Below, piece by piece: positions 2,310-32,002 of a DNA stretch of 32,566 nucleotides. The translations under genes were made by a program, and so were the position numbers. The DNA is taken from the NCBI RefSeq assembly GCF_011043775.1, contig NZ_JAAKXY010000010.1:1-32566 (forward strand). Reading direction: 5' to 3'. Positions within the stretch are counted from its first letter, which is position 1. Every line of letters starts with the position of its first letter. The notes below the pieces were generated by a model, which was given only the letters and a program-made list of their open reading frames with translations, made no database searches and was not told where the DNA came from. Origin of the DNA: Natronolimnobius sp. AArcel1 (GTDB lineage Archaea > Halobacteriota > Halobacteria > Halobacteriales > Natrialbaceae).

Positions 2310-2666
2310 ATGAACGGTAGAAATCAGCGTTCGACGGTATCACACTCACCCTCGATTAGCGAGGATGACGAACTAGCACAGATCGCCCAGCAGATCGCAT
2401 GTCCCAACTGCGGAGACCTTCCGGTTTCCCTCGTCGAAGTACTTTCACCAGACGAAGTCTCCGATGAGAGTGTCAAAGCGTTCAAAAATGGTCTCAAGGG
2501 AGCGCTCGTCGGCGGGATCACCGGTGCCCCACTCGGTCCAGGAGGGATCGGCCTCGGAATGGCTGGTGGCGCACTCATCGGGAGTGATCAAGGACGCAAA
2601 CAGGCAAAGAAAGAGCGTCTGGTTGTCTCCTGTCCGTGCTGCGGGTACCATGGGAGGTGTGACTGA
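2310..2666 (+). CDS. Zinc-ribbon / glycine-zipper protein of CBASS operon
   Basis: A 118-aa protein with two cysteine clusters flanking a glycine-rich hydrophobic stretch. C31-P-N-C34 pairs with a C-terminal cluster (C108, C110, C111, H114, C117) to make a split zinc ribbon. Residues 61-92 (GALVGG, GAPLGPGG, GMAGGALIG) form a glycine zipper able to insert in or oligomerise at a membrane. Its TGA overlaps the next ATG by one base (TGATG), so it is translationally coupled to the CD-NTase. It is not one of the standard CBASS ancillary proteins (Cap2/Cap3, HORMA/TRIP13). It may be a membrane-associated accessory, a second effector or a ligand sensor; these are inferences. The leader hairpin lies just upstream and I see no ribosome-binding site. 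Confidence 0.75.
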   Translation: MNGRNQRSTVSHSPSISEDDELAQIAQQIACPNCGDLPVSLVEVLSPDEVSDESVKAFKNGLKGALVGGITGAPLGPGGIGLGMAGGALIGSDQGRKQAKKERLVVSCPCCGYHGRCD

Positions 2667-3613
2667 TGGCGATCCCCGAAAGCCAGTTTGAAGGCTGGTA
2701 CAAGACAGGGGCTGATGCTGGTTCTGCCACTGCTCGCGGACGAATAAAGCGAATACTCGAAATGGACCGGTCTCCGATCCAGCAAAATGAGGACTGCTCA
2801 TTCAAAGTGTTCCTTCAGGGATCCTATAAGAATCACACCCACACCAGGGGATCTAGCGACGTGGACATCGTCGTGAAGCTAACCTCTGCATGGCGGCGTG
2901 ACCTGTCGAATCTAACTTCGACTGAGCGGGACCGGTACCACAACAACTCGGGGTCAGCGGATTACAGCTACACTGAGTTCAGTGACGACGTGTGGAACTG
3001 GCTCCGGCGGCAATTCAATAATCCAGGTGACCGGATCTCTCGTGGGAACAAGGCGATCGCCATCGAAAGCGACCGCCTTCCGGTTGACGTCGATGTCGTT
3101 CCGTGTGCGGATTACCGGATCTACAACAGTTACCCGCCGACCGAGTCCAATACAGAACCCGATATCGACCACGGGATGTACTTCGACGCGCAGAGAACAG
3201 GCGAACGGATCATCAACTATCCACAGATCCACTACACAAACGGGTGCCAGAAGCACTCGAAATACAAAGAGACCGTCCGTATCTTCAAAAACGCGCGTGA
3301 CTACTACAACGATCACTTCAGCACCTGGCAAACGATCGACGCGCACTCCTACGGCATCGAATGTCTCATCTACAACGTTCCAGATGAGATTCTACAACGG
3401 TCACGCCGACGTGACCGCTTCATCGAAGTCCTAGATCATCTCCAAGACGAGAGCACCGATCTCAGCGGATTCGATCAAGTGTCGGAAGAGGAGTTGCTAT
3501 TCGGAGACAGTAACACCCAGTGGGACCTCACCAACGCAGAACAGTTACTCAGCCGGCTCCGCGAGATGTGGAACGAGTGGTACGATAAACAGAATGCACA
3601 GCTACTCCACTGA
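2666..3613 (+). CDS. CBASS CD-NTase (cGAS/DncV-like cyclase)
   Basis: A 315-aa nucleotidyltransferase that should join nucleotides into a cyclic di- or trinucleotide alarm signal on infection. The polymerase-beta-like active site is clear: G52-S-Y, then R61-G-S-S-D65-V-D67 for metal binding, and the third carboxylate in the strand LPVDVDVVP (D141/D143). The C-terminal helical half (HSYGIECLIY) fits the SMODS architecture, and the length is usual for the family. It overlaps the preceding zinc-ribbon gene by one base and the Cap15-like effector by 20 bases, so the three form one operon. The signal produced cannot be read from sequence. No Cap2/Cap3 genes are present, so this is a minimal type I-like CBASS. 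Confidence 0.9.
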   Translation: MAIPESQFEGWYKTGADAGSATARGRIKRILEMDRSPIQQNEDCSFKVFLQGSYKNHTHTRGSSDVDIVVKLTSAWRRDLSNLTSTERDRYHNNSGSADYSYTEFSDDVWNWLRRQFNNPGDRISRGNKAIAIESDRLPVDVDVVPCADYRIYNSYPPTESNTEPDIDHGMYFDAQRTGERIINYPQIHYTNGCQKHSKYKETVRIFKNARDYYNDHFSTWQTIDAHSYGIECLIYNVPDEILQRSRRRDRFIEVLDHLQDESTDLSGFDQVSEEELLFGDSNTQWDLTNAEQLLSRLREMWNEWYDKQNAQLLH

Positions 3614-4211
3614 TCAGCCTCGACGCCACCAGTGGTACATCTGGATAGGCGTCATCGCAGCCTCAGTAGCATTTCTGCCGCTAGCGGCAGGGAGCCTAAA
3701 GGGAATTCCCCTTGGAGTCCTCGTCGGAGGGCTCTATTACGGTTTCACACGCTGGCTGTGGAAATGGAGCGTTCTCCGGGCGTACAACATCGTTGAGGTT
3801 CCAGTTTTGGACGGCGAGTGGGAGGGGTATCTCTACACATCGAAAGACCCTGCGGAGATAGATGACGAGCTCATCGTCAAAACGGGAAAACAACGAGATG
3901 GACTCACCAAAATGGAAACCTCGCTCAGGATCGAACAAACCTGGGATAAGGTCTTAGTGTCGTTAGACGGGCCAGAGTCCAACTCTGGCAGCCAAGGAGC
4001 GACGATCCTCGTGAAGGAGAACGCTTGGCCCACGATCGCGTACAACTACGTCAATGATGGCGGTTACGCGAACGATGATTTGGACATGCACTATGGGACA
4101 ACGACGCTCCAGTACGATGCTGACGAGGATAAACTCGAAGGTCCCTACTACACTCGCCCGGACCAAAGAGGGAATCATGGAATCCTAGAGCTGTACCGAA
4201 AAAGCCAGTGA
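3594..4211 (+). CDS. cap15: Cap15-like CBASS effector (2TM + beta-barrel)
   Basis: A 205-aa membrane protein. Residues 14-33 and about 38-56 are hydrophobic and form two transmembrane helices. The rest is beta-strand-rich and opens with LDGEWEGYL, matching the G-x-W-x-G start of the SMODS-associated 2TM beta-strand effector domain. In characterised Cap15 proteins the barrel binds the cyclic nucleotide and the protein assembles in the inner membrane and disrupts it, killing or arresting the infected cell. The gene starts inside the 3' end of the CD-NTase gene (20-base overlap), the expected position for its effector. No downstream partner follows. Confidence 0.85.
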   Translation: MHSYSTDQPRRHQWYIWIGVIAASVAFLPLAAGSLKGIPLGVLVGGLYYGFTRWLWKWSVLRAYNIVEVPVLDGEWEGYLYTSKDPAEIDDELIVKTGKQRDGLTKMETSLRIEQTWDKVLVSLDGPESNSGSQGATILVKENAWPTIAYNYVNDGGYANDDLDMHYGTTTLQYDADEDKLEGPYYTRPDQRGNHGILELYRKSQ

Positions 4212-5008: not shown

Positions 5009-6253
5009 ATGGCTCAGGCGGGAAACTCCGAACTGGTAGATGCGTTCACTCAATTCTTCGAAAGCTACTACGATACCGGAATTAAAGAACTCGCTAAGCG
5101 ATACCCAAACAAACAGCGGTCACTCCACATCGACTGGGAGGACATCTACCGGTTCGATCCCGACCTTGCGGACGACTTCCTGAACCATCCCGAGCCACTC
5201 CAGCGCTACGCCGAGGAGGCGCTACGACTGTACGACCTTCCGATTGACGTCAGCCTCGGCCAGACCCACGTCCGCGTCCGGAATCTGCCCGATACCGAGT
5301 CGCCCGAGATCTGCGAGCTACGTGCACGCGACATGAACAGTCTCGTCCAACTCCGCGGAATCGTCATCGAATCAACCGACGTAAAACCGAAAGTCGTAGA
5401 CGGTGCCTTTGAATGCCAGCTCTGCGGAACACTCTCCAGAGTTCCACAATCAAGCAGTGACCTACAGGAACCACACGAGTGCCAAGGCTGCGAACGCAAA
5501 GGACCGTTTCGACTGAACTTCGATCAGTCCGAATTCATCGACTCGCAAAAGATCGTGATAGAGGACGAAGCAACAACATCGCCAGAACCACCAGGATCCA
5601 TCGAAGTAGAACTGGAGGATGATATCACAAATGAGGTCTCTAACGGTGATTTCGTCGATGTGACCGGTGTTCTTCGACTCGCGGATGATAATTCTGGTAA
5701 TACGTTTGAAACACACTTAGAGGGAATGTCCATTGAACTCGTAGATTATGACGAACGTGAACACTGGCCAACTATCGAACCGACTACAGATAGCGAGGGC
5801 TTCAAGATGGACCTGGAAGCGTTCGTGGAACGCTCTCGTCGGGTGTTGCAATCACACGAGTATCTGGATGAGACGAGTGCGAAAGCGAAGATCATCACAC
5901 CGTTCATCAAGTTGCTCGGATGGAATATCTATAGCACGGACGTTCTCATGGAGTATCCTCGCGGGGATTCGGATATCACTGATCGTGTCGATTATGCGTT
6001 GATAGAAAATGGTGATCTGAAGGTATGCATTGAGGCGAAGCGTCCGACTGTGAATTTGGATGCGAAGACAGGGCAATTGAAGCGGTATATGCGTCTTCAC
6101 CGGTGTAACTGGGGGTTGCTCACAAATGGAGATCGGTACATTATTCTTCGAGACGAGAAGGAGTTCGAGCTTGACGATATTATTCGAGAGGTGGATTGCG
6201 AACTAGAGCACTTAGTCAAGCGAGAATCCGCGTTGGCTCCGCTTCGACGATAG
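5009..6253 (+). CDS. MCM N-terminal domain fused to HsdR-type nuclease
   Basis: A 414-aa fusion. Residues 1 to about 250 follow the haloarchaeal MCM N-terminus closely: the helical A-domain (SELVDAFTQFFESYY; YRFDPDLADDF; YAEEALRLYDLP), an OB fold (VRNLPDTES; LVQLRGIVIESTDVKP) and a zinc ribbon (C136, C139, C158, C161). The AAA+ ATPase that should follow is absent. Residues about 268-395 instead form a PD-(D/E)XK nuclease of the HsdR N-terminal type: a helix ending at LLGW304, D328 in RVDYAL, E342-A-K344, then Q356-L and the characteristic LLTNG at 370-374. Such a protein should sit on DNA or in an MCM-like ring and cut it, but cannot unwind it. Base composition is GC-rich at the 5' end and more AT-rich in the nuclease part, which suggests a joined gene. 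A tyrosine recombinase gene follows 145 bp downstream. Confidence 0.88.
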   Translation: MAQAGNSELVDAFTQFFESYYDTGIKELAKRYPNKQRSLHIDWEDIYRFDPDLADDFLNHPEPLQRYAEEALRLYDLPIDVSLGQTHVRVRNLPDTESPEICELRARDMNSLVQLRGIVIESTDVKPKVVDGAFECQLCGTLSRVPQSSSDLQEPHECQGCERKGPFRLNFDQSEFIDSQKIVIEDEATTSPEPPGSIEVELEDDITNEVSNGDFVDVTGVLRLADDNSGNTFETHLEGMSIELVDYDEREHWPTIEPTTDSEGFKMDLEAFVERSRRVLQSHEYLDETSAKAKIITPFIKLLGWNIYSTDVLMEYPRGDSDITDRVDYALIENGDLKVCIEAKRPTVNLDAKTGQLKRYMRLHRCNWGLLTNGDRYIILRDEKEFELDDIIREVDCELEHLVKRESALAPLRR

Positions 6254-6398: not shown

Positions 6399-7046
6399 AT
6401 GACAACGCCATCTGCAAATTCCCACGCTCACCAAGCAGCAGCCTGGCTCAAACCTCGCCAAGTCCGCGAACTCCGAACCGCAGCTCAAAGCACTAACTCA
6501 CTCTCTTACCTCCGCGATCGAAACGAGGCAATCGTCACTTTGCTATATGACACTGGCCTTCGAGTTGGCGAACTCGTCGCGCTTGACGTCGAGAATCTGC
6601 ACTTCAATGACGATCCAGCGTATCTTGCGCTTCCAGCATCGATTCAAAAAGAGTATCCGACAGATCGCTCGCCACGGTACCAAGAGATGAACTTGAGTGT
6701 CGATGAAACAACCTATGACACGGTTCCGCGGCTCCAGTCATACCTCAATAATCGCTGGAAGGACAGCGATGCTCTCTTCCCGAGTCGGCAAGCCGATCGC
6801 ATGACTACCGAAAGTGTTCGTCGAGTGCTTCGTGCCCTCGCTGAGACAGCCGATGTGCGACCGCACACGATCGAAGGGGTCCAAGGTTATCCCACAGATG
6901 TAACGCCGCATACGCTCCGTCACAGCGTCGCGTATCGAATGTTGCATGCAGAGGACGGATACTCACTATACGACGTCCGGAATCGTCTCCGACATGCGAC
7001 CATTCAAACAACCGAACGAGTCTATGATCACTTCGATCGCATCTAA
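6399..7046 (+). CDS. Short XerC/D-like tyrosine recombinase
   Basis: A 215-aa site-specific recombinase with the catalytic set in order: R55 in DTGLRVGEL, H171-x-x-R174 in HTLRHS, H199 in RLRHAT, and nucleophile Y209 in ERVYDHF. A normal Xer protein has about 300 residues with an N-terminal core-binding domain; here only about 40 residues precede the catalytic domain, so this is a compact or N-terminally reduced form. The ATG start is the first available, and a TATA-like stretch lies 11-20 bp upstream, slightly too close for a leaderless start. It could resolve plasmid multimers or move a cassette. An insertion-sequence end lies 14 bp after the stop. Confidence 0.85.
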   Translation: MTTPSANSHAHQAAAWLKPRQVRELRTAAQSTNSLSYLRDRNEAIVTLLYDTGLRVGELVALDVENLHFNDDPAYLALPASIQKEYPTDRSPRYQEMNLSVDETTYDTVPRLQSYLNNRWKDSDALFPSRQADRMTTESVRRVLRALAETADVRPHTIEGVQGYPTDVTPHTLRHSVAYRMLHAEDGYSLYDVRNRLRHATIQTTERVYDHFDRI

Positions 7047-16482: not shown

Positions 16483-16691
16483 GGCCCGTATCGGTCTTCT
16501 CTAGTCGGCCGGTAACTCGTCTTTTCTATCACTTTGATAAGTTCGAAAAGCGTTCTATGACATGTTGATACCGCTCTAACCACCGGAGAGTCCATCTCAT
16601 CTACGGGAGTAACCCAAGAGGAGAATACAGGGCTGGACAGCAATGTATAACTAAACACTAAGTTAGCGTATTGGGTACATTCGGTAACAAG

Positions 16692-19600
16692 ATGCTTTCT
16701 CTCCCTCCGCTTGTCGATAACGCTAACCGGACGGTCGAAGACGTCTACAAGAAAATCATCCCGGAGATCGAAGAAGCGCGCATCGCAACCGGCTACTTCT
16801 ACCTGTCTGGGTTCGACCTGTACCGCGAAGATCTCGAACAACTTGCTGATCCAGGCGAACTCGGTCACGCCCCGATCCGCATCCTAATGGGACGGCAAAC
16901 AAACCGCAGCACAGCAGATGAAATCGGTGAGGGCCAAAGCCTACGCGACGAACTCAGAGACGAGGTCGAAGAGAGTATTGAGGACCTTAACAACGCGCAA
17001 CTAGACCGGTTAGATCGGCTGCGAGACTTCATAGCCGAAGACAAGGTTAGCATCCGTGTGCGAAACCCAAAAAACGGCTACTTCCACGCCAAAGGAGCCT
17101 CGTTCAGAGCCCCGCAAGACGATGACGACTGGGAGACTGACAACGATACGGATACGCGTCCGTGTGCGACTATTGTCGGGTCCTCAAACTTCACCGCGAG
17201 TGGCCATCGGAACAACATCGAACTGAATCTCACAAGCCAAGACCGGCCTGAAGCAGAGGCATTCGAAGACTGGTACGATAACCAGTGGGCGAATGCTGAG
17301 GACTTCAGCGAGGAGATCATCCGAATCATCGAGAACAGCGGGAAGTACCAAGATTGGCAGGAACAACAAGAAGACGAAACAGAGGACGAAGACACGCCTG
17401 ATAACTTAGGGACATACATTGAGCCGTTCGAGCTGTACAAACTCCTTGCGTACGACGAGCTAAGCGGAAACGTCAACATCCGCGACAGCCCACTATACTA
17501 CTTCCAGACACTCGGATACGAAAGCGCGAAGGAGAAACTCTCCCGGTTCAACGGCTGCATCATCTCCGACTCAGTCGGTCTCGGGAAATCATTCATCGGC
17601 GGTGAACTCCTGCATGACTACCGCCAACGCGGAGATCGTTGTCTCCTGATCGTGCCTGCGAACCTCACCGAACAGTGGGCAGACCTCCTCGAAGACGACA
17701 CAGACGAAGACGGAAACCCGTACTTCGGGCTCGAAATCGATGGTAAACACCTGGACGTGATGAGTATCAGCAAGTTCCAGAATCTCACGTACGATGAGGT
17801 TCAGGGCCTCAAAGACGCGTTCAACGTCGTTTTGATTGACGAAGCGCATCGCTTCCGGAATCACGGGAAATGGCGACCGAACCCAGACGACGAAGACGAC
17901 TACAAAGGAACTCGCCGGCACGCAAACTTGCGTCAGCTCCGTGGGAAAACAATGATAATGCTGACGGCGACGCCGATCAACAACTCAGCAACCGACCTAG
18001 AGAACCTCATCAGCCTATTCACCAGTCCAGAAGAACTGCGGAACAAGGCATCACTGGACTTCGACGCCTTCGAGGAATATATCGAGCTTTCAGAGACGCG
18101 GAAGCAGATCGCTGCCGGGAAGGAGGAAGCCACCGAAGAGGAGCAGCGAAAGATTACCGAACAGCTCCAGCGACATTCGGAAGAAATCTCGAAGATCCTG
18201 AATGAGGTAATGGTACTCCGGACGCGGAAGCACGTGAAAGACCAAATTCAGGATGAAGAGGACTTCGAGATGAGTTTCAAGCCGCCAACCCTCAGCAAGG
18301 AGCAGTACTCGCTCCCGGCGGCATACCAACCAGTATACGGGATGCTTCCGGACGTGATGGACGCGCTCCACCTTCCGCACATCACGGTGAAGAACCCGAA
18401 AGCTGGTGGGACGCTAAAGGCGCTGTATAAGCTGAACTTGCTCAAGCGGCTGGAGTCATCGACGTACGCATTCGTGCAGTCCATCGAGACACTACACCGG
18501 AGTGAACGGCAACTCCTCGGCCTTCTCGATGGGCTCCCAGAAGACGAGCAAATCGACATGCTGCGAGCGGCACAGGACGACGAAGAATCCGAAACGCTCG
18601 ATGACTTCGTGGAGGGGGATGACGCTGCTGAAGACCTCGAACAGACGCTGGAAGAGTTCGGGTTCGATACGACCGCGGTCCGTGCCGACGAAGACACAGA
18701 GAGTGACAGTACGGACGAATTGGTGGATGCGACAATTGGAGAGGTGAAAACGTACATCCGGGAGGACCTGACGCTGCTGGCGTACTTCCTGTCACAGTTC
18801 ATCGGTGATATCGCCCAGGACTCCGGCGATGTGAGTGACCAGGCCGTTTCAACACGGCAGTGGCTTCACGATCATAATGCCGGTGTCCTTCCGGACGTTC
18901 CAGAAGAGGAGTTGAACCCGATTCTTTACCCGCGAAGTGACCTGGGTGACGTTGATGAGGAGACACGAGAGTTCTACGAGGCGGTGTTCTCGTTACGAGA
19001 GTTCCGTGACCCGAAGGTTGAGCGGCTTGCAGACGTCCTCAACGGATATGATGACGAGAAGGTCCTCGCCTTCACCCAGTACCGTGCCACGGCAGACTAC
19101 GTTTATCGAACGCTTCTCAAGGATCCTGATTCGCCCCTTACAGAGGTAAATAGTGCTGTTGTCAAAGGCGGTGACGACAACAAGCAAGACGTTATTCAGC
19201 GGTTTGCACCGGAAGCCTCGGGGTACCAGCAAACACTGGCTGAATCCGGTGAATCAGAGCTACAGTACGTCATAGCAACCGACACCCTGTCGGAAGGGGT
19301 CAACCTTCAGGACGTCTCAGTCCAGGTGTCATTTGATTTACCGTGGAATCCTATGCGTATCGTTCAGCGAGTGGGTCGTATCGACCGGATCGGGAGTACG
19401 GAAAAAAAGTACGTCCACAACTTCTACCCAGACGGTGACATCGAAGCAGCGATTAAGCTCCTGAAACGGCTACAGGCGAAGATCAACGACATCGCACTCA
19501 TCGTCGGAAAGGAAAACAACATCCTCGACCCGAACGAGGACCGACTTCTAGAGAAAACTGGTGTGGAGACGGAGAAGACGATTGGCGAGTTACAGGTGGA

Positions 19601-20504
19601 CGAGATTGAAAACTCGTTACAGAAGTCGCGCGAGATCGATGACGTAAACGAGCTCGATGACACGAGCAAGAACCCGCTCCTGCGGAACGCAGGGAGTAAC
19701 GAGCACGCGGCGTACGAACGCTTCCTATTGAAGAAGGAACTGAATGAGGACTTCGGACTCACGGAAGATGACTTCGAATACGCAGCGGATTACTTTGATG
19801 AAGTACCGGAAGAACGTGAGTTCTTGTATACGAACGTCACCGATCACGATGCCGGGCCCCGACCCGGTGTATTCGCCTTAGCCCACCTCTGGTTTGATGA
19901 TGCCGGCCACGAATCACCACTTGGACGTGTCCGTCGGGCGTTCTACTACAAACCGTTCACGGACGATGTCAAAGAGCGTCCGGTTGGAACGCTCAAGATC
20001 AATCCGTCAGTGAGTGGTGAGCCAATCACGGAGAACGCTGAAAGCGTGTTGGCAAACCGTGAATCAGTAGCAGACGTCCTTGATGACCGATTGGAGGCGA
20101 TTCGGGAAGGTCAGGTGGAAGGTGCGTTCAAGCAGGGCGAATCGTTCTCGAAGGAACAAGAGACAATTCTGGATTTTATTTCCCACTACCTCCAGCCAAA
20201 CCACGGTGAGGTGCCCGTCTCAGTCGATGACTACGATACTCTTGGCGACTGGGCTGTTGATCTCCGGGAACGTCTCCAAGACGTGAAGTTAGCCGGCACG
20301 GATGAGGATCGTATCCTTCGAGATACATTCCGACATAATGAACAGTATGACTCGTTCCCGGAATGGCCCCCTGTCAAATTCTTAGAAGAGCTTGAGAGGT
20401 TCTTGGAAGAGAATGTCGAAGAATCCACCGAATATCAAGCGAAGCTCGTGGGAGAAAGTGAGGTTCGGGCCCAGCTGATGTGTTGGGGCGTGATAGGCAC
20501 GTAA
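16692..20504 (+). CDS. PLD nuclease - SNF2 helicase fusion (DrmC/DrmD-like)
   Basis: A 1,270-aa protein from ATG 16692. Residues 1 to about 200 form a phospholipase-D-type nuclease half: H132-A-K134 followed by VGSSNFTASG and an N-x-E motif, without the Asp of classical HKD. An acidic linker leads to a SNF2/HepA-type helicase: Walker A G296-L-G-K-S300, DEAH 383-386, LTATPINN near 424-431, and in the second lobe LAFTQYRATADYVYRTLL, TLSEGVNLQD and QRVGRIDRIGS. The last 350 residues are not assigned. It should translocate on and cut foreign DNA. It converges with the adenine methylase gene, ending 26 bp from its stop. DISARM uses separate DrmC and DrmD proteins with DrmMI; here the first two are joined and DrmA/DrmB are missing. 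Confidence 0.85.
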   Translation: MLSLPPLVDNANRTVEDVYKKIIPEIEEARIATGYFYLSGFDLYREDLEQLADPGELGHAPIRILMGRQTNRSTADEIGEGQSLRDELRDEVEESIEDLNNAQLDRLDRLRDFIAEDKVSIRVRNPKNGYFHAKGASFRAPQDDDDWETDNDTDTRPCATIVGSSNFTASGHRNNIELNLTSQDRPEAEAFEDWYDNQWANAEDFSEEIIRIIENSGKYQDWQEQQEDETEDEDTPDNLGTYIEPFELYKLLAYDELSGNVNIRDSPLYYFQTLGYESAKEKLSRFNGCIISDSVGLGKSFIGGELLHDYRQRGDRCLLIVPANLTEQWADLLEDDTDEDGNPYFGLEIDGKHLDVMSISKFQNLTYDEVQGLKDAFNVVLIDEAHRFRNHGKWRPNPDDEDDYKGTRRHANLRQLRGKTMIMLTATPINNSATDLENLISLFTSPEELRNKASLDFDAFEEYIELSETRKQIAAGKEEATEEEQRKITEQLQRHSEEISKILNEVMVLRTRKHVKDQIQDEEDFEMSFKPPTLSKEQYSLPAAYQPVYGMLPDVMDALHLPHITVKNPKAGGTLKALYKLNLLKRLESSTYAFVQSIETLHRSERQLLGLLDGLPEDEQIDMLRAAQDDEESETLDDFVEGDDAAEDLEQTLEEFGFDTTAVRADEDTESDSTDELVDATIGEVKTYIREDLTLLAYFLSQFIGDIAQDSGDVSDQAVSTRQWLHDHNAGVLPDVPEEELNPILYPRSDLGDVDEETREFYEAVFSLREFRDPKVERLADVLNGYDDEKVLAFTQYRATADYVYRTLLKDPDSPLTEVNSAVVKGGDDNKQDVIQRFAPEASGYQQTLAESGESELQYVIATDTLSEGVNLQDVSVQVSFDLPWNPMRIVQRVGRIDRIGSTEKKYVHNFYPDGDIEAAIKLLKRLQAKINDIALIVGKENNILDPNEDRLLEKTGVETEKTIGELQVDEIENSLQKSREIDDVNELDDTSKNPLLRNAGSNEHAAYERFLLKKELNEDFGLTEDDFEYAADYFDEVPEEREFLYTNVTDHDAGPRPGVFALAHLWFDDAGHESPLGRVRRAFYYKPFTDDVKERPVGTLKINPSVSGEPITENAESVLANRESVADVLDDRLEAIREGQVEGAFKQGESFSKEQETILDFISHYLQPNHGEVPVSVDDYDTLGDWAVDLRERLQDVKLAGTDEDRILRDTFRHNEQYDSFPEWPPVKFLEELERFLEENVEESTEYQAKLVGESEVRAQLMCWGVIGT

Positions 20505-20530
20505 GATCGGTCTTGACCAATCACCCAAGA

Positions 20531-23500
20531 TTACGGCTTGGGTCCGGTTTCCTCAAACTCGTCGTACTTCTCAAGTACGAGGTTGAAGTATGCTTCTGTC
20601 ATAACCCGGGGATTCTGTGTTCGGTGAAAGTCCTCTAAAACGAATTTTGCCTCTTCCCGTTCGAGATCGTACGCGTGGAATGCAGCTGCATCAAGTTCAG
20701 CCTGTGTCCTTCTACGTTCATCAGGAGAAGTGGCAGGATCGATATCGCCCAATCGGTCACGCATTTCAGCAAAGTCCTCCCCGTAGCAATTCAACTGTGC
20801 GGCTCTGTCAGAGATGAGGTGGAACCAGTCATCACCTTCTGCAAGCCGGGGTACCTGAGTTTCTTCAACCTTGTATTTCACCATATTGGTCTCAATCTTC
20901 GTTCGCATCAAGAAGTCGAATGGGATGCTGTTGATCAATCCCACCGCGCAGAACAATTCACGGTCGGTGAAAATCCGCTCATACGCGTTATGTAGATTCC
21001 CTTGTTCTAAGTGCTCTTCTTTTGGGTTGAGTTCGTACGATCTGAAGAGTTGTACTGACTCAATGCACACTGCTCCCTTGGGAATCACCGATGCGACCAT
21101 TGTTCGTTCGTTGGTCGAATTAGAGATTTTTCGGTACCCAATCCGGTATTCTGTATAATCCGGAAGTACATCTGACTCAGAAAGCCCCTCGCCCCGATTT
21201 TCTTCGAGTAGTTCATCAACGAACTGGACTTGAGACTTGCTGGTGGTTCCACCCCCGAATGATTCGTAAAGAGCCTTCTTGAGGTATCCTTTATTGAATG
21301 CTTTTTGTCGCACACGAGCGCGAGCGCTTTCTTCAGGATTGTCTGTATCTTTGCTCCAGTAACGTGGGGAGGCTAAGTCATCGATGAAACGGGGGGTGTG
21401 GCTAAACTGATAGATGTTCTCACCCTCAAGCACCGGGTAATCTCCTTCATCAGGTGATTCGACGAACCGCCCTCGATCAGTCGGTTCGTGAAGTTCCTTC
21501 GTCATCAAATCAGCCCACCAGTCGTGCCCATCTTCATTTCCAATTGGAGGGTGAGATAGGATCTTGTACAAAACGTCGGCTTCTCGTTGGGATGTTACGC
21601 CTGGGAAGATTCCAGCTTCAGGAGAATAATTCGCTAAAACACGTTTAGGTATTTCAACTGCGTCCGAGTCAATCGTCTTTAGAATGTCCAAATGATTTTG
21701 GCCGAACAAACCGCGCACGTAGTCAGTACTTCCACTGTTTTTGAATGTGAGGACGCCAAACCGATATCGGTCATCGATATTGTCAAATATTCCCTTGTTT
21801 TCGAATCCGACGATTGTTCCCAGCGACGTGTTCTCAAGCATCCAGTTGCGCAGATCTTTCGCAATGGCTCCATTAAAAACGAAACCTGGGAGAATAAGGC
21901 TCACATGGCTGTCCGTTGACGCTAACTCAAATGCCCGCTCAAGAAATAGGGCAGACAGGTCATTCTCGCTTGCAACGGTTCTACCTGCTACCTTTGGAGA
22001 TTGTAGCGTATACTGTTGTGACTTGTTGAAATAGTCTGCACGCCTCTCCATTGTCTCTTTGTGTTTGTTCCATTTATTGGCAATCTCGGGATCCTCTAGC
22101 AGATTCTCTTCGACAGCATCCTTCTGATTGGCATTATACTGCCGGAAGGTCTCGTCATACTGAGAAAAGAAGTCGTGTCTGTTCGGGCTCAAGACCTCCC
22201 AAGGTGGATTTCCAATTACAACATCGAATCCGCCGTCACGGTAAACAGGAGCAAACTCCAAAACCCAATGGAACGGATAGTACTGTTCTAAAGTCTCTCC
22301 ATCAACATCCTCAACACCGGCATCATGGAATTGTTCTAGGACCTTTTGATCTAGTCTCTCACTATGTGTTTCAATTCTGGATTCAGCTAACCGTCTTGCG
22401 TTCGTAGCGACTTTCGAACTTGTTGCAGTCTGATGACGCTCGATGACCTCGATAACATCTTCATATAGTTCCTTAATACCTGTTCCGGCACCTTCCCCAT
22501 AATTTGAGAGAGAAGCGTCGCCTTTCTCCGTCGCTACCTCGTCAACCTTTGTGAACCCGATTAGTGAATTACCGTGTCGAATATTGAAGTCGATGTTGGG
22601 GAGTGGTTCCACCTCGTTCGGTTCGTCTTCTATGTCAGCGACCATCGACAGCCAAAGACGAAGTTTACAGATTTCAACTGCGCCTTCATCGATGTCAACA
22701 CCGTAGAGATTATTCAGGATGACCGTGCGTTTCGCGTAAAGCGATGCACCACCCTGTCCTTTGTTGATTTCTTCTAACTCATCGCGGGTTCGGGATTCTA
22801 ACTCCCAACCCTTGCCTACCTGTTCGAGTTGCTGGAAGTATTCAATGCACTGGATGTAAATGTCCAACAGCACGTCCTGAGCAGCGAGAAGGAACGCACC
22901 ACTCCCCACTGCCGGATCAAGAATATGTGCTTCCTTCAGGATGTTGTGATACAGGGTTTCAACGTGGCCCGTCTCTACGTTCTCTGTAGGGACCTGCTGG
23001 GTCATCGCTCCGCCATCCGCGACTACTTTTTCACCACTGCTGGCTTCTACACCAGGGAACCCGAATACGTCGTCAATTTCGTCGTATTCAGCATCGACAG
23101 CCTCGTTGAGTTGGTCAAGCAGGTACGGGTGGACCGTCCGGCGGGACATGAACCCGGTGATCTCTTCGGGCGTATAGTACGCGCCCATCTCTTTCTGGTT
23201 GACGGTCTGCTCGAAGATGTGGCCGAGAATCGCGGGTGAGAGGTTCTTCGGGTCAACGATGTCCAGACGCTCGTCCACGTTCCAGTTCCACCCCGACAGG
23301 AAGTCCAGAAGGTCATCGAAGAGCTCGTTCGTTTCTTCGGCGGATTCACCCAACTTTGCGTTCGGGAAGTCTTCTTCGACAGGGTTCTTGGCGAACAGCC
23401 CACCATTCAGGTACGGAAGACTGCCGAATTCCGGGTTCTGCTTGTCCTCTGCGAGGTAGTCGAAGAACAGTGGCCGATAAAAGTTCTCGTACCAATCTTC

Positions 23501-24160
23501 ATCATCATCCACGACGTCGCTGGGCTGTTCATGCAGGTAGTTCGGATTCCGGTCAAGCAGTCGCTTTTCCTGGATGAAGTACAGGAAGATCATCCGATCA
23601 AGGATGACCTGCACATACCGTTGCTTTGCGTCACCACGGTCATCCGGAATACCGGAGACCTCCTGAACGAGATTGGTTCGGAGTTCTTCGAACTCTTCAT
23701 AGAACTCTTTGACCACCTGTTGTGTGTCGTACAGCGTGTCATAAATCGCCGCAGAGGAACCATACTCAATCGAGTTGAGTTTCTTCAGAACAGTATTCTT
23801 CTCCCCGCTGTCGCGCGTGAACTGGTCTTTGCTGAACGAGATTTTCTGGTGCTTGATGCGGCCGTGCTGCTGTCCTTCCCAGCTACGCATCCGCGTCAGG
23901 AAGGTGAACTCATCGAAATCGTTCGTGGCGACCAGATTGGTATGCCGGGAGCGGTTATCTGGCTTGAAGTCAGTGGCTGATTCTCCCGGCCCAGCATTGA
24001 CGATCACGACGAATTCGTCGTCACCGAGCTGAAGAACAAGTTCATTATCCTCTCCGAGATTCGGGCGGGGTTTCAGCCCGCGTTTCTCGAAGGAGTTAGC
24101 AATATCCTGTAGAGAGTCCCAGCCCGCGATATCGTCCGCGGTAATCTGCTGGAGAGTCAT
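20531..24160 (-). CDS. Eco57I-type N6-adenine DNA methyltransferase (DrmMI/PglX-like)
   Basis: A 1,209-aa methylase that should mark host DNA on adenine. An N-terminal helical domain leads to MGAYYTPEEITGFM (326-339), the SAM-binding motif I D415-PAVGSGAF, and the catalytic NPPW at 651-654 (FDVVIGNPPWEV). The long C-terminal half should contain target recognition. The first 200 residues include a short strand region (DEFVVIVNAG) and RMIFLYFIQEKRLL typical of large PglX-like enzymes; no PD-(D/E)XK motif stands out, so cleavage probably lies with the PLD-helicase. It follows the SH3-like gene by 56 bp and converges with the helicase gene. Opposed transcription of methylase and nuclease/helicase would allow the methylase to be made first. 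Confidence 0.88.
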   Translation of the reverse strand: MTLQQITADDIAGWDSLQDIANSFEKRGLKPRPNLGEDNELVLQLGDDEFVVIVNAGPGESATDFKPDNRSRHTNLVATNDFDEFTFLTRMRSWEGQQHGRIKHQKISFSKDQFTRDSGEKNTVLKKLNSIEYGSSAAIYDTLYDTQQVVKEFYEEFEELRTNLVQEVSGIPDDRGDAKQRYVQVILDRMIFLYFIQEKRLLDRNPNYLHEQPSDVVDDDEDWYENFYRPLFFDYLAEDKQNPEFGSLPYLNGGLFAKNPVEEDFPNAKLGESAEETNELFDDLLDFLSGWNWNVDERLDIVDPKNLSPAILGHIFEQTVNQKEMGAYYTPEEITGFMSRRTVHPYLLDQLNEAVDAEYDEIDDVFGFPGVEASSGEKVVADGGAMTQQVPTENVETGHVETLYHNILKEAHILDPAVGSGAFLLAAQDVLLDIYIQCIEYFQQLEQVGKGWELESRTRDELEEINKGQGGASLYAKRTVILNNLYGVDIDEGAVEICKLRLWLSMVADIEDEPNEVEPLPNIDFNIRHGNSLIGFTKVDEVATEKGDASLSNYGEGAGTGIKELYEDVIEVIERHQTATSSKVATNARRLAESRIETHSERLDQKVLEQFHDAGVEDVDGETLEQYYPFHWVLEFAPVYRDGGFDVVIGNPPWEVLSPNRHDFFSQYDETFRQYNANQKDAVEENLLEDPEIANKWNKHKETMERRADYFNKSQQYTLQSPKVAGRTVASENDLSALFLERAFELASTDSHVSLILPGFVFNGAIAKDLRNWMLENTSLGTIVGFENKGIFDNIDDRYRFGVLTFKNSGSTDYVRGLFGQNHLDILKTIDSDAVEIPKRVLANYSPEAGIFPGVTSQREADVLYKILSHPPIGNEDGHDWWADLMTKELHEPTDRGRFVESPDEGDYPVLEGENIYQFSHTPRFIDDLASPRYWSKDTDNPEESARARVRQKAFNKGYLKKALYESFGGGTTSKSQVQFVDELLEENRGEGLSESDVLPDYTEYRIGYRKISNSTNERTMVASVIPKGAVCIESVQLFRSYELNPKEEHLEQGNLHNAYERIFTDRELFCAVGLINSIPFDFLMRTKIETNMVKYKVEETQVPRLAEGDDWFHLISDRAAQLNCYGEDFAEMRDRLGDIDPATSPDERRRTQAELDAAAFHAYDLEREEAKFVLEDFHRTQNPRVMTEAYFNLVLEKYDEFEETGPKP

Positions 24161-31201: not shown

Positions 31202-32002
31202 ATGAGAATCGATGTAGGGATGCAGAAAGGGGGCGTCGGAAAGACGACAACCAGTATCAACCTCGCTGGAGCGCTCGCTAACCGCGGCCACAATGTGCTC
31301 GCTGTCGATGCTGATCCACAGGGCGGACTAACACTCAAACTCGGCCACCGCAGCCAGTACCGAGAAAGCGAGTATGCACTCTACGATGTCCTGTCCGAGA
31401 TGGGGCAGCTCACTCTGGATGACCTTGACGAACTGATTATTTCCGGTGACGAGTTCGATATCGTCCCATCCCATTTGCGGAATTTCCGGTTGGAAAAACA
31501 CCTGTACTCAGAAGCCCGTGGGGTCGAAGCGCTGAAACTTGCCCTCGATCGGCTCACAGTAGACTACGACTATATCGTGATTGATTCCCCACCAAACCTC
31601 GGACCACTCGCCGACGGAGCACTACTCGCCGCGGAGAACGTGGTCTTCCCCAGTCATGCCAACACGATTGCGAAGGATTCGCTTGAAATCCTCTTTGACG
31701 AGATCGACACTCTGGAGGACAAGTTCGACGACATCAACATCTCCACCGTCGCAGCTGTTCTCAACGAGGTTGGTCGTGATGGCGTGAGCAGCGAAATGCA
31801 GGACTGGTTCGTCAGCACGTTCGGTGAAGAGTACGTCTTCGAGATACCAGATTGGGCTGTCGTTGAACACGCCATCGAATATCGGATGTCGGTGTTTGCG
31901 TATAACCCAGATGATGCGGGTTATTCGTGGGATGCAGAAAAGGCAGAGGTACTCCGCGACAAGTATGATGCAATCGCGGCACATGTGGAGGACCTCTCAT
32001 GA
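31202..32002 (+). CDS. parA: ParA partition ATPase
   Basis: A 266-aa Walker-type ATPase for plasmid segregation. The deviant Walker A motif K9-G-G-V-G-K14-T-T is at the N-terminus, the Walker A' motif is in LAVDADPQGGLT, and the Walker B strand is DYIVIDSPPNLG. There is no N-terminal DNA-binding extension, so it is the short ParA/Soj type, which needs a separate centromere-binding partner. Its stop overlaps the next start by 4 bp (ATGA). Gene order and overlap define a par operon. Confidence 0.92.
   Translation: MRIDVGMQKGGVGKTTTSINLAGALANRGHNVLAVDADPQGGLTLKLGHRSQYRESEYALYDVLSEMGQLTLDDLDELIISGDEFDIVPSHLRNFRLEKHLYSEARGVEALKLALDRLTVDYDYIVIDSPPNLGPLADGALLAAENVVFPSHANTIAKDSLEILFDEIDTLEDKFDDINISTVAAVLNEVGRDGVSSEMQDWFVSTFGEEYVFEIPDWAVVEHAIEYRMSVFAYNPDDAGYSWDAEKAEVLRDKYDAIAAHVEDLS

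Follow-up and report, generated by a model that had tools for sequence, protein, structure and literature searches.

A recurrent haloarchaeal fusion of a motor-less, host-lineage MCM N-terminal domain and a PD-(D/E)XK nuclease

The haloarchaeon Natronolimnobius sp. AArcel1 encodes a protein, P0001, in which an HsdR-type PD-(D/E)XK nuclease directly follows an entire MCM N-terminal domain, with its helical bundle, zinc ribbon and OB fold. Related fusions recur among haloarchaea, and their MCM parts appear to have been captured repeatedly from the replicative MCM of the host lineage, a pattern suggesting that the MCM piece may serve to address the nuclease to replication complexes. The gene lies in the 32,566-nucleotide contig that was analysed here as a whole and is called the window (Table 1). 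A sequence-only reading of this DNA had described the same protein as an MCM ring domain with a nuclease in place of the helicase motor; the observation is confirmed, and its interpretation is partly supported.

P0001 is a single open reading frame from an ATG to a stop codon, with exactly the boundaries proposed earlier, and Pfam, AlphaFold and Foldseek bear out the architecture in which the motor is gone. Profile matches, structure prediction and structure comparison agree on both the MCM half and the nuclease half. All Pfam matches lie above the gathering cut-offs, including the two MCM domains in Table 1, HSDR_N_2 at residues 321-382 (8e-7) and HSDR_N at residues 324-383 (1e-6). In a phmmer search of the PDB, residues 6-249 align with the N-domain of Methanothermobacter MCM (3.8e-32), and Foldseek matches the first ~240 residues to archaeal MCM N-domains (1ltl, TM 0.87 normalised by target); together with the zinc cysteines, these matches cover the helical, zinc and OB domains. 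The AlphaFold model of the whole protein, based on a 71-row alignment, has a mean pLDDT of 89.7 and a pTM of 0.73, and that of the nuclease domain alone has a pLDDT of 90.1 and a pTM of 0.86.

Table 1. Features of the window discussed in the text (residue numbers refer to P0001)
Feature	Position	Strand	Evidence or source
CBASS cyclase (cGAS/DncV-like nucleotidyltransferase)	2666..3613	+	PADLOC Cyclase, 5.6e-94
CBASS Cap15-like 2TM effector	3594..4211	+	Pfam Cap15_CD_rec, 6e-19; PADLOC Effector, 4.7e-90
MCM N-domain / PD-(D/E)XK nuclease fusion P0001, 414 aa	5009..6253	+	ORF, Pfam, AlphaFold
MCM N-terminal helical domain, residues 13-73	5045..5227	+	Pfam MCM_N (PF14551), 1.3e-6
MCM OB domain, residues 102-224	5312..5680	+	Pfam MCM_OB (PF17207), 5.5e-25; Foldseek 1ltl
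Residue 121 (E), site of PfMCM R124	5369..5371	+	mapping from PMC3970758
Zinc ribbon C136-C139...C158-C161	5414..5491	+	Cys conservation counts
F176, site of PfMCM F179, centre of the subunit interface	5534..5536	+	role from PMC4627082
Residue 183 (V), site of ssDNA-binding PfMCM R186	5555..5557	+	alignment
Degenerate allosteric communication loop, residues 184-197	5558..5599	+	column conservation, weak evidence
HsdR-type PD-(D/E)XK nuclease domain, residues about 262-414	5792..6250	+	Pfam HSDR_N_2/HSDR_N, AlphaFold, Foldseek DrdV and HsdR
Catalytic motif D328, E342-A-K344, Q356	5990..6076	+	38-sequence alignment
Tyrosine recombinase, downstream neighbour	6399..7046	+	Pfam Phage_integrase, 6e-24
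ParA partition ATPase, end of 32.6-kb contig, as on plasmids	31202..32002	+	Pfam AAA_31, 1.3e-36

The nuclease domain has the alpha-beta-beta-beta-alpha-beta fold of PD-(D/E)XK enzymes (AlphaFold, Foldseek) and matches DrdV, HsdR (3h1t), BpuSI and Cas4 in Foldseek. The possibility, raised in the sequence-only reading, that no nuclease fold follows residue 268 is excluded by Pfam, AlphaFold and Foldseek alike. The zinc ribbon and the catalytic residues were found by alignment and Pfam at the places it had given. E288, D328, E342, A343 and K344 are invariant across 38 aligned nucleases and Q356 is nearly so; the active site is apparently intact, and DNA cleavage is a putative activity of the protein. 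Scans with Pfam and profiles detected no AAA+ motor in P0001 or in the other fusions with an MCM N-domain. The shift in GC content that had been proposed between the two halves was not found, since GC3 is 57.6% in codons 1-250 and 57.0% in codons 266-414, with no break at the junction; a GC-rich stretch (GC3 74-82%, about codons 26-125) falls within the MCM part.

About 500 haloarchaeal genomes, as well as IMG/VR, phages and plasmids, were searched, using nuclease, full-length and junction-spanning alignments as queries for the haloarchaeal genomes. Ten MCM-N/nuclease fusions, including that of the window, were recovered from several haloarchaeal families, roughly 2% of the haloarchaeal genomes searched. 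Eight of them constitute type A, namely the window protein (G000, f1) and those of Salinigranum salinum (G424, f4), a Haloglomus halophilum plasmid (G462, f3), G339 (f8), G168 (f3), G002 (f3), G217 (f11) and G128 (f10), while type B is a divergent pair from the Haloplanus rubicundus plasmid pCBA1112-02 (G405) and G239, both f4. In a scan of genome contigs, the Salinigranum protein matches P0001 over residues 1-410. Because the domain pair is found in nine other haloarchaeal genomes, the observation is far beyond chance, an assembly chimera is ruled out, and the earlier concern that the fusion might be confined to one assembly is removed.

A winged-helix-like C-terminus of the MCM kind ends four of the ten fusions (type A G424, G339, G462 and G128), and the tail of the fusion profile picks up the C-termini of genuine MCM genes (7e-9 and 8e-9). 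It is missing from the window protein, G168, G002, G217 and type B. The retention of this element after the nuclease in four fusions indicates that the motor was replaced in the middle by the nuclease. Nine of the ten fusions have a conserved nuclease motif; G128, which lies outside the 38-sequence alignment, has EVE where the others have EAK, so that its nuclease, judged by this motif, may be inactive or carry a variant site.

Several other candidates were set aside during the search. Stand-alone HsdR_N proteins were considered as hidden fusions, and the stand-alone nuclease ORFs that were checked have no match to an MCM N-domain. For G160 (L154), a candidate with a mid-frame nuclease, Pfam finds no MCM domain. 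A viral origin was also rejected: IMG/VR and the phage records yield plain MCMs only, and viral MCMs stand apart from the fusions in the tree.

A mirror chimera was found in G080 (L207:8230-10146), in which an HsdR-type nuclease with conserved motif is joined to a motor-dead C-terminal half of MCM. In place of the Walker A sequence GDPGTGKS it has VHDSGTLT, Walker B (DELD) is missing and the SRF of the arginine finger has changed to SQF; the lid and winged helix are still recognisable. The MCM nearest to this half is the one that its own genome encodes (51% vs 39-47%). The gene adjoins ParA, with an Orc1/Cdc6 gene near. A DUF499/DUF1156/helicase operon with an empty slot starts about 5 kb from the chimera.

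The MCM parts of the type-A fusions follow their hosts. In a maximum-likelihood tree of 59 MCM N-domains, the sister of each of the G339, G462, G168, G002 and G217 domains is the replicative MCM encoded by the same genome (bootstrap 100). The G128 domain belongs to a group of four rows that also contains its own host and the G217 pair (99/96), that of G424 lies within its own genus and that of the window protein within its own family. All eight type-A members therefore group with the replicative MCM of the host lineage at the level of species, genus or family, and forcing their MCM parts into one clade is rejected (dlnL 290, p-AU 5e-10). In a larger, quick tree, too, the distance of the type-A fusions from host core MCM is smaller than that from viral MCMs.

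Identity comparisons with 117 MCMs give the same picture: the best match is the own host for six of the eight type-A members and, for the remaining two, an MCM from the own genus or family. The lead of the own host is marginal for G128 (45.0% vs 44.2%), and the top three matches of G424 are congeners of its host. The top five matches of the window MCM part (70-71%) are all Natrialbaceae; as its own host ranks only 41st of 117 (67%), it matches the family and not the species. Host-conserved columns are only moderately kept in type-A MCM parts (0.56-0.82), and the MCM part of type B is highly divergent (22% to hosts). In 25-codon blocks, DNA identity to the host mcm is at most 84% for the window gene and 89% for G168; these values rule out recent gene conversion for both and, since no recent tract is present, the capture is not recent in either.

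The history of the nuclease differs in that the data do not reject one clade for all eleven nucleases joined to MCM parts (p-AU 0.33, tree with bacterial outgroups). An earlier nuclease tree had given a 100/99 split, the support for which dropped after bacterial outgroups were added. Most simply read, the nucleases form one lineage, and host MCM was acquired separately, by capture or replacement, at least six times.

The residues kept and lost in the MCM part were mapped to PfMCM by alignment spacing rather than by structure superposition. The four zinc cysteines are kept in all ten fusions, as in 117/117 host MCMs and 24/24 viral or outlier MCMs, and cannot be mutated in Haloferax volcanii, which means that they are essential (PMC3972481). 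The F176 site is phenylalanine in 8/8 type-A fusions and is lost in type B. Its PfMCM counterpart, F179, is at the heart of the subunit interface, and its mutation leaves only monomers (PMC4627082). At residue level, this conservation gives some support to a possible hexamer formation by the type-A fusions. The proposal in the sequence-only reading of a protein that might enter the ring of the host, or imitate it, is also supported by the kept zinc cysteines and by the grouping of all eight type-A MCM parts with the host lineage.

The basic residues that hold ssDNA in PfMCM, R124 and R186 (PMC3970758), show the opposite trend. Position 121 is lysine in 117/117 hosts and is non-basic in 7/8 type-A members, compared with 4/24 viral or outlier MCMs, and position 183, arginine in all hosts, is lost in 6/8 type-A members, compared with 7/24 (Fisher p 0.0007 and 0.04, respectively, uncorrected for relatedness). 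With E121 and V183, P0001 lacks the MSSB basic residues of a replicative MCM. Of the known properties of this region invoked in the earlier reading, the hexamer interface keeps its phenylalanine, whereas canonical DNA binding is weakened by the loss of most ssDNA residues. In the communication loop (residues 184-197), host-conserved columns are kept at 0.21 vs 0.81 elsewhere; this divergence is weak evidence and was demoted as proof of motor loss, because viral MCMs with motors diverge there too. Taken with the trees, these patterns indicate that selection has kept the structure and contact surfaces of the MCM N-domain together with the nuclease motif, has drawn the domain more than once from the lineage of the local host, and has removed the motor and the grip on ssDNA.

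The window carries defence and mobility genes around P0001. The overlapping genes of a CBASS cyclase and a Cap15-like effector (2666-4211) end about 800 bp upstream, an opposite-strand ORF lies between them and P0001, and Pfam finds no nucleotide-sensing effector domain in P0001, which is thus not placed in the CBASS system. Assignment to a type I restriction-modification system does not hold either, as the chain is without a motor and no type I M/S genes occur among the neighbours scanned. No DUF499-type operon is present among the genes scanned on the contig, so that the window gene is not embedded in an Hma system, and no PADLOC or NCBIfam model spans the MCM-nuclease fusion as a unit. The window ParA is 36% identical to the ParA of the fusion-bearing Haloglomus plasmid. 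At 16671-24160, a PLD/SNF2 helicase gene (+ strand, PADLOC C3a139 HKD+Snf2) is convergent with an Eco57I-type methylase gene (- strand), possibly a further restriction system.

The other type-A genes lie in varied settings. Their neighbours include ApeA (HEPN) and HNH in G168, SRA-HNH and an HFX_2341-type protein in G424, and Cas4-helicase and Piwi in G462, while the G339 fusion adjoins a chromosomal gene, histidinol dehydrogenase, and the surroundings of G128 contain no clear defence gene. In G002 (L203:9172-11189), the next gene after the fusion, in the same orientation, encodes an SRAP protein; the called frames overlap by a few bases, and GmrSD is nearby. SRAP proteins are a family of abasic-site sensors, and the two genes of G002 possibly constitute an operon acting at replication forks. 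Genes for a serine recombinase (55%) and for a TFIIB-like protein (33%) are shared by the loci of G424 (L059) and G217 (L225), which come from distant haloarchaea. This indicates that some carriers are related mobile elements; these two probably represent one family of integrative element. No conserved operon partner was found across the type-A loci, and no neighbour gene is common to all.

The type-B genes, by contrast with the window gene, are embedded in a DUF499 operon matching Hma models, where the DUF1156 methylase and PLD/SNF2 helicase genes flank them (Haloplanus rubicundus L115, G239 L148). The slot between methylase and helicase is empty in Haloplanus rallus, Halorubrum ezzemoulense and Salinirubellus, and in two other relatives it holds either a 323-aa protein without assigned function or an SF1 helicase. 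Among the loci with this variable slot (L115, L148, L212-L216), the 323-aa protein is a candidate defence gene in its own right. In other cases cited in PMC12988326, genes embedded in Hma operons proved antiviral. Carriage on plasmids and islands and embedding in defence operons favour a role of the fusions in genetic conflict.

Motor-less or truncated MCM genes were also seen separately from the fusions. Two Halorussus plasmids (L116:5989-6726 and L117:5989-6723) encode hypothetical proteins of about 245 aa that consist of an MCM N-domain only, from genes that lie upstream of one for a PadR regulator and close to ParA. About 4 kb from its fusion, G217 encodes a second, divergent MCM protein (L225:15-992, about 326 aa) with an N-domain and the start of a P-loop domain.

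The explanation that we tentatively prefer, at slightly less than an even chance of being right, is a host-matched MCM mimic that addresses a nuclease to replication complexes, encoded by a conflict gene of haloarchaeal plasmids and islands in which the nuclease was joined, several times, to a helicase-null piece of host MCM. The MCM piece would be the address, its likeness to the host allowing the protein to enter or cap MCM rings; alternatively, the protein could be taken up by whatever loads or hijacks MCM, for example the loader of a foreign replicon. The nuclease would thereby reach the replication complexes of viruses or rival plasmids as these complexes form, and would cut there. Against this explanation, the repeated capture of host MCM could reflect the availability of the donor gene and not a need to match, and self-toxicity has no account in the model as such; self-damage would probably be avoided if the protein became active solely on replication intermediates of foreign origin or in response to a hijacker.

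Self-tolerance is better explained if the MCM part stays out of rings and acts as an integrated decoy that baits viral or plasmid MCM recruiters, with binding of the hijacker freeing the nuclease, so that DNA is degraded or the cell is killed. Many haloviruses and plasmids encode their own MCM, and those without one presumably use that of the host. Such a decoy accounts for host-lineage capture, for the loss of the motor and of the ssDNA residues and for the avoidance of self-damage, and it fits almost as well as entry into MCM rings, but we consider it rather unlikely: a decoy alone gives no reason for F176 and the zinc ribbon in all eight type-A members, unless these are needed for the fold or form the hijacked surface, and no candidate hijacker was identified. 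The same residues bear on the proposal that the fusions are ordinary accessory nucleases working with restriction systems on plasmids. The MCM part would then be a mere DNA-binding OB/zinc module, close to the host only because an abundant donor recombines easily. For a module free of constraint there would be no need of F176 and four cysteines in eight captures, the ssDNA-binding residues are precisely those lost, and type-A genes lie outside methylase/helicase operons. The position of type B within such an Hma-like operon, the divergence of its MCM part and the closeness of the nuclease domain to restriction nucleases in Foldseek agree with an accessory role, which is possible mainly for type B and, for the family as a whole, is improbable to much the same degree as the decoy.

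A role in plasmid housekeeping, with MCM-like recruitment of the nuclease to the element's own origin or forks for copy control, fork processing or incompatibility, would suit the replicons with ParA (window, G462), the mirror chimera with its ParA and Orc1/Cdc6 genes and the SRAP gene that follows the G002 fusion. It is nonetheless quite improbable, given that the fusions are rare, patchy and also found on chromosome-sized contigs (G128, G002, G424), that their surroundings are mostly defence genes and that no replication gene is common across the loci. Least probable by far is a dominant-negative MCM that poisons MCM rings with the nuclease being dispensable. The missing motor, the kept interface residue and the mirror chimera, motor-dead yet otherwise MCM-like, would be expected from it, but the conservation of the nuclease motif in nine fusions and in the mirror chimera indicates that cutting is likely under selection.

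Viruses and plasmids without their own helicase must use host MCM, and a nuclease that mimics host MCM would thus strike at a step that is hard to escape. Whether the fusions are immune or inter-element weapons, arising from repeated capture of a motor-dead piece of host helicase along with a nuclease and delivered to, or triggered by, users of host MCM, is in our estimate evenly balanced; such weapons would be a prokaryotic counterpart of integrated decoys or Trojan subunits, aimed at the step of replication initiation. The family makes testable the idea that captured self-proteins serve as address labels or decoys in prokaryotic immunity. In addition, natural motor-less MCM domains with a nuclease as surrogate reporter could help to map the MCM surfaces needed by archaeal loaders and hijackers.

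The sequence-only reading had named no described system of this form, and this agrees with a search of open-access papers, preprints aside, in which neither an MCM-nuclease fusion nor repeated capture of the host replicative helicase by defence proteins was found described. Motor-less MCM N-domains and MCM genes on haloviruses and plasmids were already known (PMC3972481); what appears new is the architecture and its evolutionary pattern, while the function is putative. Among the closest known systems are the haloarchaeal core-group MCMs, such as Haloferax volcanii MCM (PMC3972481): between the window N-domain and the MCM of its own genome identity is about 67%, the zinc cysteines and inter-subunit phenylalanine are shared and four of the ten fusions have the winged helix, but the fusion carries a nuclease instead of the AAA+ domain and lacks the ssDNA residues and the communication loop. 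Haloarchaeal outlier MCMs, which include N-domain-only proteins of 312-315 aa (PMC3972481), resemble the fusions in having a motor-less MCM N-domain and differ in the lack of a nuclease, and type-A fusions are nearer to host core MCM. The nuclease domains of HsdR_N, type IIG and type IIL enzymes (DrdV, HsdR, BpuSI) share the PD-(D/E)XK fold and motif, whereas the fusion chain has an MCM part and no motor, methylase or specificity domain. Among the Hma (PADLOC) and DUF499 BREX-related systems (PMC8565338, PMC12839542, PMC12988326), type B occupies the embedded slot, while the window gene and the other type-A genes lie outside such an operon. BrxL of BREX (PMC10164562) likewise brings an MCM-like fold into phage restriction, with a proposed action on the initiation of phage replication, but unlike the fusions it has an active AAA+ domain, no nuclease and no specific kinship to the host's own MCM.
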